Source: Halapricum salinum (GTDB lineage Archaea > Halobacteriota > Halobacteria > Halobacteriales > Haloarculaceae). Taken from it: 64,000 nt of DNA. The first letter of the stretch is position 1. Every line of letters starts with the position of its first letter. Under the pieces are notes generated by a model. It was not told where the DNA came from and made no database searches. It was given only the letters and a program-made list of their open reading frames with translations. Both the position numbers and the translations under genes were made by a program. Shown here piece by piece: positions 28,635-32,901 of the stretch. Location: assembly GCF_004799665.1 (NCBI RefSeq), contig NZ_CP031310.1, positions 3,030,887 through 3,094,886 on the forward strand, given 5' to 3'.

Positions 28635-28726
28635 GACTTCAATACGCTGGTATGCCACCACATACCAAAAAGGTTCCCCAACCGTCAGACCTTGCGCGAC
28701 CGGGTTGGTCGCACAGGAGCGTTCGT

Positions 28727-28919
28727 GAGCCGGCCGTCGACAATACACGTCTCCCGGCTGGACTATTCGCACATGAACATGCTCACGAGCCGGCCGTCGA
28801 CAATACACGTCTCCCGGCTGGACTATTCGCACATGAACATGCTCACGAGCCGGCCGTCGACAATACCCGGCTGGACTGGCTGCGCAAAGACGCGCAGCCG
28901 TGCCGCCGTCGACAATACA
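28727..28919. repeat. Tandem 60-bp repeats upstream of polB
   Basis: Bases 28741-28800 and 28801-28860 are identical, and 28727-28740 and 28861-28866 continue the pattern, giving about 2.3 units. A core CCGTCGACAATAC recurs four times (about 28734, 28794, 28854 and 28907). Each unit contains CCGGCT and AGCCGG, which can pair around a loop that holds CATGAACATG. The spacers are identical, so it is not a CRISPR. The rest of the gap 28635-28971 shows no gene. Confidence 0.85.
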
Positions 28920-28939
28920 CACGCCGCCCGACCGCGGAT

Positions 28940-28948
28940 GTTTTTACC
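28940..28948 (+). promoter_or_regulatory. TATA-like element for polB
   Basis: GTTTTTACC (28940-28948) is about 28 bases before the polB ATG at 28972, the spacing of a leaderless haloarchaeal promoter. Confidence 0.45.
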
Positions 28949-28971: not shown

Positions 28972-31900
28972 ATGAGTGAAGACGCGCAGGCGACCCTTAC
29001 CGGGTTCGGTGACGGCGACGACAATCGCCCGGATGGCGAAGCCGAGGCGGTCGCCGGAAGCGATCGTGTCACGGCAGACGTCGTCGACGCCGACGAGTTT
29101 CGCTATCCCGACGCCGACGGAACGATCGAGCTCTCGGTGACCCAGGTCGACTACACCATCGACGGCTACGGCGACGAGGAGTTCCCAATCGTCCACGTTT
29201 TCGGCCGAACGCCCGATCGTGAACTGGTGCACGTCGAAGTCTACGAATTCCGTCCCTACTTCTACGCCCCGACCGCGAATCTGGACTTCGACGACCTCGA
29301 ATCCCGGGATCGAATCACGGGCTGGGAGGCCGGCTACGAGTCGATCCGCGGCGAGGAGCTGACCAAAATCTTCGGCCAGACCCCACGCGACGTCGGGCAG
29401 ATCCGCGACGAATTCGACCACTACGAGGCCGACATCCTCTTCCCGAACCGCCTGCTCATCGACAAGGACATCACCAGCGGGATCCGCGTCCCCGAGCGAC
29501 GGACGGACGAGGAGACGATCCGCGTTCCACACGACGAGATCGAGACCGTCGACGTCGAGGTCGAACCCCGCGTCTCGACGTTCGACATCGAGGTCGACGA
29601 CCGCTCCGGATTTCCCGAGGACGGCGAAGAGAAAATCATCTGTATCGCCAGCCACGATTCCTACCGCGACGAGTACGTCCTCTGGCTAGTCGACGCCGAC
29701 GAGGGCGGTGCGATCCCCGACCGGCTCGACGGCTACGATCCACTCGAAGCTGATTTCGAGCCCGACATCCGGGTCTTCGACGAGGAGCCCGCCATGCTCG
29801 ATGCGTTCGTCTCGTATCTCGAAGATACCGATCCGGACATAACGACTGGGTGGAATTTCGCCGACTTCGACGCACCCTATCTCATCGACCGGCTCGAAGT
29901 GCTCGACCCGACGACCGACTACAATCTGGATTACAATCGCCTCTCGCGAGTAAACGAGGTCTGGCAGAGCGACTGGCAGGGGCCGGACGTGAAAGGTCGT
30001 GTGGTTTTCGACCTCCTGCGGGCCTACAAACGGACGCAGTTCACCGAACTCGAATCCTACCGACTCGAAGCCGTCGGCGAACAGGAACTCGGTGCCGGCA
30101 AGGAGACCTACACTGGGGATATCGGCGACCTCTGGGAAGACGACCCCGAGCGCCTGCTGGAGTACAACCTCCGGGACGTCGAGTTGTGTGTCGAACTCGA
30201 TCGCAAACAGGACATCATTGCCTTCTTCGAAGAGATTGCCTCGTTCGTGGGGTGTAAACTCGAAGACGCGCCCACGCCCGGCGACGCCGTCGACATGTAC
30301 GTCCTACACAAGGCCCACGGCCGGTTCGCCCTGCCCTCGAAAGGCACCGTCGAGTCCGGCGAAGAGTTCGAAGGCGGCGCCGTCTTCGACCCCATCACCG
30401 GCGTCGAGGAGATGGTCTCGGTGCTTGACCTGAAGTCGCTGTACCCGATGTGCATGGTGACGATCAACGCTTCACCGGAGACGAAAGTCGACTCCGAGAG
30501 TTACGACGGCGACACCTTCGTCGCACCCAACGGCCAGCACTTCCGAACGGAACCGGACGGGATCATCCGGGAGATGGTTACGGAATTACTATCAGAGCGT
30601 GAAGAGAAAAAGAAACTCCGAAACAAGCACGAGCCTGAAACACAGGATTACGAGCAATATGACCGTCAGCAGGCTAGTGTCAAAGTTGTTATGAATTGTT
30701 TCACTCCAGACACCGACGTATTGACCCCGGACGGTGTCAGGAATATCAGGGCGCTGGACGTCGGAGATCAGGTGTACTCTCTTGATCCGGACACCCTGGA
30801 AATGGAGTGCAAACCGGTGGTCGAGACGCAGGCCTATCCAGACTATCGCGAAGAATTGGTCGATATCGAGACGAGCAAGATAGATTTCAGTGTGACTCCC
30901 AACCACCGGATGCTAGTGCGCAAGGACGACAAAAACGGCGCTACGTGGGACGGATTCCGGTTCGTCGAGGCCGGTAATCTCAACGAAGCATCCCACTACG
31001 AGATGCCCCACGACTGGGACGGTCCTGATGGGGAACGGCTCGACTCCGTCGACATCACTGAGTTCCTAGACAGCGAGTACGAAGTGTGGGTCGACAACGA
31101 CGACCATGGTCATACCCTTGCCGCAGAAGTCGGGTGGTATCCGGACAAGATGCAGAAACAGGGTGAGGACGGAACTGGGTACGTGTTCTCCGCCGACGAG
31201 TTCGAAGAGAATCGCTCGTATCTCGACGAAAACTGTTCGGGATTCTACGTTCACGCCGAACGGGGCCGGAAGTGGATTCCACGCTTCTACGACGGTGACG
31301 ATTTCCTCGACCTGCTAGCCTGGTACATCACTGAAGGATCTGTCTACACCTCCGAAGACAAACAGTTCGGAGAGAACTTCCGGGGGAGTGCAACGACTAT
31401 CCAACTGGCACAGGAAGCACTTCCAGACGGTGGTAGAGACGACGACCACGCGGCTATCAGGGCGTTGCTCGACAGAATCGGATTCGACCCATACACAGAT
31501 GACCGAGGCTACCAGTTCACCTCGAAGCTTCTCGGCGACTGGTTGCGAAAGCAGTGCGGGGCCGACAGCTTCGAGAAGCGGATCCCTGAGTTCGTTTTCG
31601 AGTTGAGCCACGAACAGAAAGAACGATTCCTGCACACGCTGATCGACGGCGATGGTGACCGACAGCCCAACAGCTGGCGCTACACGACGTCCAGCGAACA
31701 GCTTCGGGACGATGTGTTACGTCTCTGTGCGCATCTCGGACTCACTGCGAGCGTCAATCACGATAGCGGGTCCTGGAGAATCTACTGCACCGAGAACGCC
31801 AAGAACAGTTTCCGGATGCACCGCTCTGGAGGAACAAGTACAGCCGATGACGGAGTGTACTGCGTAACTGTCGCGGACAACAATACGCTTCTGGCGGGCC

Positions 31901-32901
31901 GTAACGGGAAATTCCAGTGGGTTGGCCAGTCGCTCTACGGCGTTTCGGGCTGGGATCGATTCCGCCTGTACGACAAGGACAACGCTGCCGCCGTGACGGC
32001 GACCGGACGGGCCGTCATCGACCACACTGAAGACGCTGTCGAGGACCTGGGCTACGAGGTGGCCTACGGAGACACCGACTCCGTCATGATCAGTCTCAAA
32101 GACGAGGCATCCTCGGTACAGGACGCCATCGATCAGTCCTTCGAGATTGAGAAGGCGATCAACGCTTCGTACGACGAGTTCGCCCGCGAGAATCTGGATG
32201 CCGAGGAACACCGCTTCCAGATCGAGTTCGAGAAGCTCTACCGACGCTTCTTCCAGGCCGGCAAGAAGAAACGCTACGCCGGCCACATCGTCTGGAAAGA
32301 GGGGAAAGAGGTCGACGACGTCGACATCACGGGCTTCGAGTACCAGCGCTCGGACATCGCGGGCATCACGAAGGAGGTCCAGCTCAAGGTACTCGAGATG
32401 ATCGTCAAAGAGGGTGATATCGAGGGCGTGACCGACTATCTCAACGGCGTCATCGAGGATTTCCTGACGGGCAACATGGACTACGAGAAGGTTGCGATTC
32501 CGGGCGGCATCGGCAAGCGCCTGGACAACTACGATACCGACACGGCGCAGGTCCGAGGCGCGAAGTACGCCAATCTCCTGCTGGGGACGAACTTCCAGCG
32601 CGGGAGCAAGCCAAAACGACTCTACCTGCAGAAGGTCCACCCCGAGTTCTTCCGCCGCGTCGAGCGCGAGATGGGGCTCGATCCCGCCGAGGACGTCCTC
32701 TACGGGGAGTTCAAACGCGACCCCGACGTGATCTGCTTCGAGTACGACGAGCAGATTCCCGAGGAGTTCGAGGTCGACTGGGAGAAGATGCTCGACAAGA
32801 CTCTGAAGGGGCCGATCGCCAGGGTCATCGAGGCACTTGGAATCTCGTGGGACGAGGTCAAGAGCGGCCAGGAGCAGACCGGACTCGGCCAGTTCATGTA
32901 A
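28972..32901 (+). CDS. polB: Family B DNA polymerase with intein
   Basis: A 1309-residue precursor, about 898 residues after intein removal, the usual size for haloarchaeal PolB. Exonuclease motifs are visible (FDIEVDD, TGWNFADFDAPY, YNLRDVE). Polymerase motif A is DLKSLYPM, motif B is KVVMN plus SLYGV (split by the intein), and motif C is YGDTDSVMI. It is the replicative or repair polymerase with proofreading. The C-terminus QTGLGQFM fits a PCNA-interacting peptide. The ATG at 28972 is preferred over a start 24 codons upstream. It lies downstream of a tandem repeat. It converges on the histidine kinase at 32909, seven bases away. Confidence 0.96.
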   Translation: MSEDAQATLTGFGDGDDNRPDGEAEAVAGSDRVTADVVDADEFRYPDADGTIELSVTQVDYTIDGYGDEEFPIVHVFGRTPDRELVHVEVYEFRPYFYAPTANLDFDDLESRDRITGWEAGYESIRGEELTKIFGQTPRDVGQIRDEFDHYEADILFPNRLLIDKDITSGIRVPERRTDEETIRVPHDEIETVDVEVEPRVSTFDIEVDDRSGFPEDGEEKIICIASHDSYRDEYVLWLVDADEGGAIPDRLDGYDPLEADFEPDIRVFDEEPAMLDAFVSYLEDTDPDITTGWNFADFDAPYLIDRLEVLDPTTDYNLDYNRLSRVNEVWQSDWQGPDVKGRVVFDLLRAYKRTQFTELESYRLEAVGEQELGAGKETYTGDIGDLWEDDPERLLEYNLRDVELCVELDRKQDIIAFFEEIASFVGCKLEDAPTPGDAVDMYVLHKAHGRFALPSKGTVESGEEFEGGAVFDPITGVEEMVSVLDLKSLYPMCMVTINASPETKVDSESYDGDTFVAPNGQHFRTEPDGIIREMVTELLSEREEKKKLRNKHEPETQDYEQYDRQQASVKVVMNCFTPDTDVLTPDGVRNIRALDVGDQVYSLDPDTLEMECKPVVETQAYPDYREELVDIETSKIDFSVTPNHRMLVRKDDKNGATWDGFRFVEAGNLNEASHYEMPHDWDGPDGERLDSVDITEFLDSEYEVWVDNDDHGHTLAAEVGWYPDKMQKQGEDGTGYVFSADEFEENRSYLDENCSGFYVHAERGRKWIPRFYDGDDFLDLLAWYITEGSVYTSEDKQFGENFRGSATTIQLAQEALPDGGRDDDHAAIRALLDRIGFDPYTDDRGYQFTSKLLGDWLRKQCGADSFEKRIPEFVFELSHEQKERFLHTLIDGDGDRQPNSWRYTTSSEQLRDDVLRLCAHLGLTASVNHDSGSWRIYCTENAKNSFRMHRSGGTSTADDGVYCVTVADNNTLLAGRNGKFQWVGQSLYGVSGWDRFRLYDKDNAAAVTATGRAVIDHTEDAVEDLGYEVAYGDTDSVMISLKDEASSVQDAIDQSFEIEKAINASYDEFARENLDAEEHRFQIEFEKLYRRFFQAGKKKRYAGHIVWKEGKEVDDVDITGFEYQRSDIAGITKEVQLKVLEMIVKEGDIEGVTDYLNGVIEDFLTGNMDYEKVAIPGGIGKRLDNYDTDTAQVRGAKYANLLLGTNFQRGSKPKRLYLQKVHPEFFRRVEREMGLDPAEDVLYGEFKRDPDVICFEYDEQIPEEFEVDWEKMLDKTLKGPIARVIEALGISWDEVKSGQEQTGLGQFM
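30697..31929 (+). other. Intein in PolB motif B (411 residues)
   Basis: The insertion splits motif B: VVMN-C(intein start) and Q(intein end)-SLYGV. Block A is CFTPDTDVLTPDG, block B TPNHRM, and block F VYCVTVADNNTLLAGRNGK. A LAGLIDADG (DOD-type) homing endonuclease is present, with LLAWYITEG and LHTLIDGDGD. The terminal residue is Gln preceded by Gly instead of His-Asn. The first extein residue after it is Ser, the usual +1 nucleophile. By eye the intein and about 100 bases of N-extein before it are richer in A/T than the rest of polB. Splicing activity is inferred. Confidence 0.93.

Follow-up and report, generated by a model that had tools for sequence, protein, structure and literature searches.

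The tandem repeat upstream of polB in Halapricum salinum is probably a member of a genus-specific family of hairpin-forming intergenic repeats

The tandem array that lies upstream of polB in H. salinum is, with a probability of about 0.8, one member of a Halapricum-specific, REP/PATE-like family of short, non-coding, hairpin-forming intergenic repeats, and no function specific to polB is needed to explain it. The family is named REP/PATE-like, and not assigned to either class, because several defining features of each fail.

Within the window, by which we mean the whole 64-kb stretch of DNA analysed, the polB array is the top-scoring tandem array (TRF score 280). The 60-bp units at 28727-28786 and 28787-28846 match each other at 100% identity, a third copy, divergent and partial, begins at 28847, and four copies of a 13-base core, CCGTCGACAATAC, follow one another at spacings of 60, 60, and 52 (Table 1). 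A search of the 3.45-Mb genome for this core, as suggested in a sequence-only reading of the same DNA, returned four forward and no reverse matches, all in the polB array, and a reversed-pattern control returned none. The repeat is real and far beyond chance, and the identical units, partial copies and four cores described in that reading all lie where it had placed them. Its estimate of the length of the array was too short, as the insertion also takes in a decayed first unit and a fourth unit, the hairpin type of which is also present in other arrays. The downstream polB gene itself contains an intein-like insert with weak Hint and LAGLIDADG matches, situated between polymerase motifs.

Table 1. 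Features of the polB array and its downstream flank (positions within the window).
Feature	Position	Strand	Basis or remark
Whole inserted array, ~231 bp	28696..28926	+	between promoter of minus-strand upstream gene and polB promoter
Unit 1, decayed (CCGGGTTGG..TCGCACAGGAGCG..GTGAGCCGGCC)	28698..28735	+	by eye against family consensus; lower confidence
Unit 2 element: CCGGCTGGACT + inner hairpin + AGCCGGCC	28750..28795	+	covariance model match 28736-28802, 86.5 bits, E 1.4e-21
Unit 3 element, same as unit 2	28810..28855	+	covariance model, genome 3059682-3059748, 86.5 bits; identical 60-mer
Unit 4 element, variant, 8-bp inner stem GGCTGCGC/GCGCAGCC (28878-28899)	28866..28907	+	covariance model 28863-28914, 31.3 bits
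Core copy 1, CCGTCGACAATAC	28734..28746	+	exact search
Core copy 2, CCGTCGACAATAC	28794..28806	+	exact search
Core copy 3, CCGTCGACAATAC	28854..28866	+	exact search
Core copy 4, CCGTCGACAATAC, terminal, closes array	28906..28918	+	nearly all arrays close likewise
Putative polB core-promoter segment CCCGACCGCGGATGTTTTTACC, TATA-like TTTTTA	28927..28948	+	kept beside polB in the four relatives without the array; role inferred from its spacing to the ATG
polB, family B DNA polymerase, in-frame intein-like insert	28972..32901	+	

Comparison of the polB region with 148 genomes of the family revealed tandem arrays elsewhere in the same genome, with ~80% identity and other linkers, and arrays in same-genus genomes too, at other loci. 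A covariance model built from 28 units scored 61 units at ~21 mostly intergenic sites in the H. salinum genome (G000), and among the other Halapricum genomes (G001-G005) it gave 17 matches in G001, four in G002, two in G003, five in G005 and none in G004. The repeat is present in four of the five other Halapricum species checked, with 0-3 arrays in sister species versus ~21 in H. salinum; arrays are carried, for example, by contig G003:C112 and by contig NZ_WPCA01000050.1 of Halapricum sp. CBA1109. Across 394 genomes sampled from the order, only single weak matches were found outside the genus (28-32 bits, E 5e-5 to 7e-4 per genome), which were taken as chance, the core count having been inspected in six of them. 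A BLAST search of plasmid and phage collections gave no match to the repeat; the one-off matches of a pattern scan of GTDB and viral contigs outside Halapricum sp. CBA1109 look like chance, and a Halosimplex match (L128) holds no tandem array of the polB-repeat kind. The arrays of H. salinum are unevenly placed, 18 of 21 lying in one 40% arc of the genome (~2.67 Mb through 0 to 0.57 Mb; P 0.0004 against random placement, with the arc size picked after the data had been viewed), and most TnpB genes of this genome lie outside that arc.

The family element is ~45-50 bp long and comprises TCTCCCGGCTGGACT, an inner hairpin and AGYCGGCC, followed by a 7-nt core, GTCGWCA, and a linker of a few bases, through which units are joined head to tail. 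The core reads GTCGTCA at hemL and in G001, G002, and G005, and otherwise GTCGACA. Three paired parts are predicted: an inner stem, which is either 4 or 8 bp long, the outer stem CCGGCT/AGCCGG and a third, small one, GAC-N7-GTC. The inner stem of the family has 4 bp and a 6-nt loop, with a C-A mismatch in the innermost pair of two polB copies, in which the outer stem is intact. The proposal of the sequence-only reading that each unit can form a stem holds in kind, complementarity being kept by compensatory change, but the palindrome on which it was based, CATGAACATG, is not foldable as drawn because its loop would be 2 nt. Compensatory variants of the 4-bp inner stem include GCGC/GCGC, GCGG/CCGC, GCAC/GTGC, GCAG/CTGC, and ACAC/GTGT, while the 8-bp versions (GGCTGCGC/GCGCAGCC, GACTGCGC/GCGCAGTC, GGCCACGC/GCGTGGCC, and GGCCGCGC/GCGCGGCC) each have an exact complement, and the small stem is GAC-N7-GTC in one set of arrays and GTC-N7-GAC in the other. 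In the 28 units 95.6% of cells are paired versus 84.8% after shuffling, a comparison that overstates significance because the units are related, and at most 43% in slid registers; double-changed cells number 43 versus 15. The pairing result was repeated on 58 units. This covariation supports the predicted stems, though it was read partly from alignments fitted to a structure drawn from the same sequences. G-U cells outnumber A-C cells (36 versus 21), a mild asymmetry that falls mostly in one column and does not set the folding strand, and folding the polB array by itself as a single strand gives only moderate information (RNA z -3.3 for the plus and -1.4 for the minus strand; DNA z -1.3 for the plus strand). 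An alternative outer pairing, GGCT-G-GACT/AGTCGGCC, fits units of G001, G002, and G005 but over the full set two of its pairs have 13 unpaired cells each. Shorter unit variants also occur, one of 33 nt without the inner hairpin in G002 (L085 2546-2655) and others of 35 nt in G003 and G000 (L086, L064), where the hairpin is a simple GGTCGGC/GCCGACC.

At polB, the flanks CCGTCAGACCTTGC and CCCGACCGCGGATGTTTTTA are contiguous, with a 3-nt filler, in G001, G002, G004, and G005, where the 231-bp array is absent. The array at this site is therefore specific to H. salinum among the species checked, which leaves no argument for a conserved element controlling polB. Downstream of the insertion the TATA-like TTTTTA is preserved together with the flank upstream of it, both untouched, and no clear target-site duplication is visible at the polB site. 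At seven other arrays, sister species have the orthologous right flank but no array beside it; some of these are weaker empty sites because the left neighbour differs too. The site upstream of hemL is filled in G000, G001, G002, G003, and G005 and empty in G004. The repeat-number comparison proposed in the sequence-only reading for strains was made here between species, and at hemL the number of units ranges from 1 to 6 or more. GTCGTCANNTWCTTTC is found upstream of hemL without any array in G004 and in G071, a genome of another genus of the same family. Since the last core exists array-free in G004 and this outgroup, the terminal core at hemL most probably belongs to the host, and the internal cores of the array seem to have been copied from it. 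The G004 site could instead have lost its array secondarily, with one core remaining, but the copy in the outgroup argues for a native core. Across the six Halapricum genomes read, hemL is constant but no two seem to have the same left neighbour there, and the site may be a rearrangement hotspot.

The arrays are closely tied to gene ends. In H. salinum 14-15 of them run up to the stop codon of an opposing gene, and six close upstream of a co-directional start. Ten arrays have 2 nt between the last GTCGACA and the stop codon, nine of them judged from open reading frames and one from reading, and three have 3 nt, so that at 13 of ~21 sites the right end lies 2-3 nt away from an opposing stop; some other arrays abut promoters. 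Right ends are fixed and left ends variable, often truncated. At the sites compared, the proteins of sister species terminate at the same or nearly the same point, and the stop codons adjoining the arrays are judged to be native. Genes ending in GAC-stop flank eight of 15 stop-flanked arrays (14 from H. salinum and one from G002) versus two of the 37 genes called in the window, a background limited to these 37 mechanical gene calls, and TCA is often found at the same offset in internal linkers. We infer from this that units are guided to where they land by short matches at TCAGTC-like gene ends.

How the family spreads can be proposed tentatively, at somewhat below even odds. A folded single strand would provoke slippage or template switching during replication or repair, the unit would be copied to new sites via short matches at the core/linker (TCAGTC-like gene ends), a landed unit would then expand through tandem duplication, and insertions would persist in gaps where no gene is harmed. 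Of the mechanisms that fit both local duplication and occasional transfer between sites, such slippage or template switching at hairpins is the simplest. Units are more alike within arrays than between them, both in the inner hairpin (0.72 versus 0.65; 3/1000 shuffles) and in the linker (0.57 versus 0.46; 32/1000 shuffles), a modest effect in a comparison of alternate units only, and this likeness fits local tandem duplication with occasional transfer between sites. An array also lies at a synteny break, where the dhaK-array flank is common to G001 and G005 and different genes lie beyond the array: G005 has dhaK-array-hemL (L083), and G001 has dhaK-array-(kinase-like gene) and hemL-array-(other gene) (L080, L081), its two arrays being inverted relative to each other, the arrangement expected after an inversion. 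This hints at recombinogenicity, as a single event that could have run in either direction. Among the three roles considered in the sequence-only reading, a recombinogenic repeat agrees best with the within-array likeness, the variation in unit number at hemL and the G001/G005 synteny break. The exact placement two nucleotides past the stop is more precise than simple slippage predicts and counts against this mode of spread. No transposase fitting the family was found by the Y1 search or in the flanks of TnpB genes.

Of the systems compared, REPs and CGTC-REPs share with the Halapricum family a short hairpin repeat located in intergenic regions near 3' ends, often between convergent genes, and a family size that depends on the species. 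This placement is described for bacterial REPs in a survey (PMC3733652) that reports the CGTC-tagged ones, which occur without a dedicated transposase, only from bacterial phyla. The 61 units at ~21 sites form a set of short palindromic units with many intergenic copies, as in REPs, and as in CGTC-REPs no dedicated transposase is identifiable and CGTC stands at the stem foot (GGC-CGTCGACA). Unlike REPs, which are mainly head-to-head dimers, the Halapricum arrays are all head-to-tail, and the Y1 (RAYT, PF01797) gene expected of REPs with a RAYT is missing from the H. salinum genome. CGTC-REPs have an 8-9 bp stem with A-T first pairs, a 4-5 nt loop, a CGTC/TGTC/CCTC tag and a CCA tail; the Halapricum unit has CGTC after the stem but lacks the A-T foot and CCA tail, and differs further in its compound stem with an inner stem and CCGGCT/AGCCGG foot, its greater length and its archaeal host. 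The tandem repeats of Borgs (PMC9879509) are likewise fast-evolving, intergenic and archaeal, have flanking partial copies and sometimes begin at gene ends, but they arise independently per locus and are A-rich and perfect, whereas the Halapricum repeats form one family with covarying stems at ~21 loci.

The closest haloarchaeal parallels are the PATEs and SMRs of Haloquadratum, which are short, transposase-free mobile repeats, the PATEs with palindromes (PMC3119063). That the repeats are PATEs proper, terminal-only derivatives of IS200/IS605 moved by a Y1 transposase that is supplied in trans and acts on their hairpin, is unlikely, although some PATEs of haloarchaea are terminal-only, at 52 bp and with palindromes near the termini, and resemble the unit in size and hairpin (PMC3119063), and Y1 transposases are present in G001, G002, G004, and G005. 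Their distribution runs opposite to unit numbers, and the Y1 transposase was rejected as mobiliser: H. salinum, the genome richest in units, has none (no PF01797 match, control genomes being positive), and G004 has five and no array. The 11 TnpB genes of H. salinum lie ~9 kb or more from any array, have only short chance matches to the unit and show no unit-like sequence of the kind expected for IS605-type ends around them. The palindromes of PATEs match IS605 termini and no such match was found in H. salinum; SMRs, the mobiliser of which is unknown (PMC3119063), carry inverted terminal repeats, and tandem arrays are not described there for either. Regarding MITE features, the unit ends are not mutual inverted repeats, and the hemL cores duplicate host sequence with no left-hand copy seen.

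A functional RNA, such as a structured 3' UTR hairpin or a terminator directly after stop codons, is a slightly poorer candidate still. It would account for the maintained complementarity and for most arrays beginning 2-3 nt past a minus-strand stop codon, but the direction of transcription across arrays is inconsistent, as arrays lie upstream of promoters at polB, hemL and elsewhere; the arrays are absent from orthologous gene ends of sister species, and an Rfam scan of the repeat gave no match up to E=1. Doubtful too, and less probable than an RNA, is a hitherto unrecognised site-directed process that adds a hairpin unit beside a short host sequence, copying that sequence each time (polarised core growth) and targeting gene ends just past stops, without any known transposase. 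Very improbable is the view, offered in the sequence-only reading, of an operator array or iterons, recurring sites at which a protein would bind to control either polB or the local initiation of replication: the cores are near-regularly spaced (60, 60, 52) and end ~20 bp upstream of the TATA-like box, but the array is missing at polB in four relatives, the outcome which that reading had itself set against its proposals, the same unit type occurs beside ~20 unrelated genes, mostly past their ends, core and linker sequences vary between sites, and the polB array at 3.06 Mb is far from the Cdc6_C matches at 1.386, 1.655, and 0.073 Mb. A CRISPR was rejected, as the 50-bp segments between cores are themselves family members, identical or ~80% alike, and not unique spacers.

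REP-type elements are well described in bacteria. A limited literature search found no earlier description of the Halapricum family, nor of any archaeal REP-like family that is arranged in tandem and conserves its structure. The array is a little-described kind of archaeal repeat element, and its reading as a polB control switch is not supported; repeats before replication genes should not be taken for regulators by default. With ~21 arrays in one species against 0-3 in its sisters, with clean empty sites, and with a hemL target that can be seen both with and without an array, the family offers a natural experiment in close relatives, which makes the spread of transposase-less REP-like repeats testable. 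The significance of the finding is moderate, and lies mainly in this clean comparative setting.
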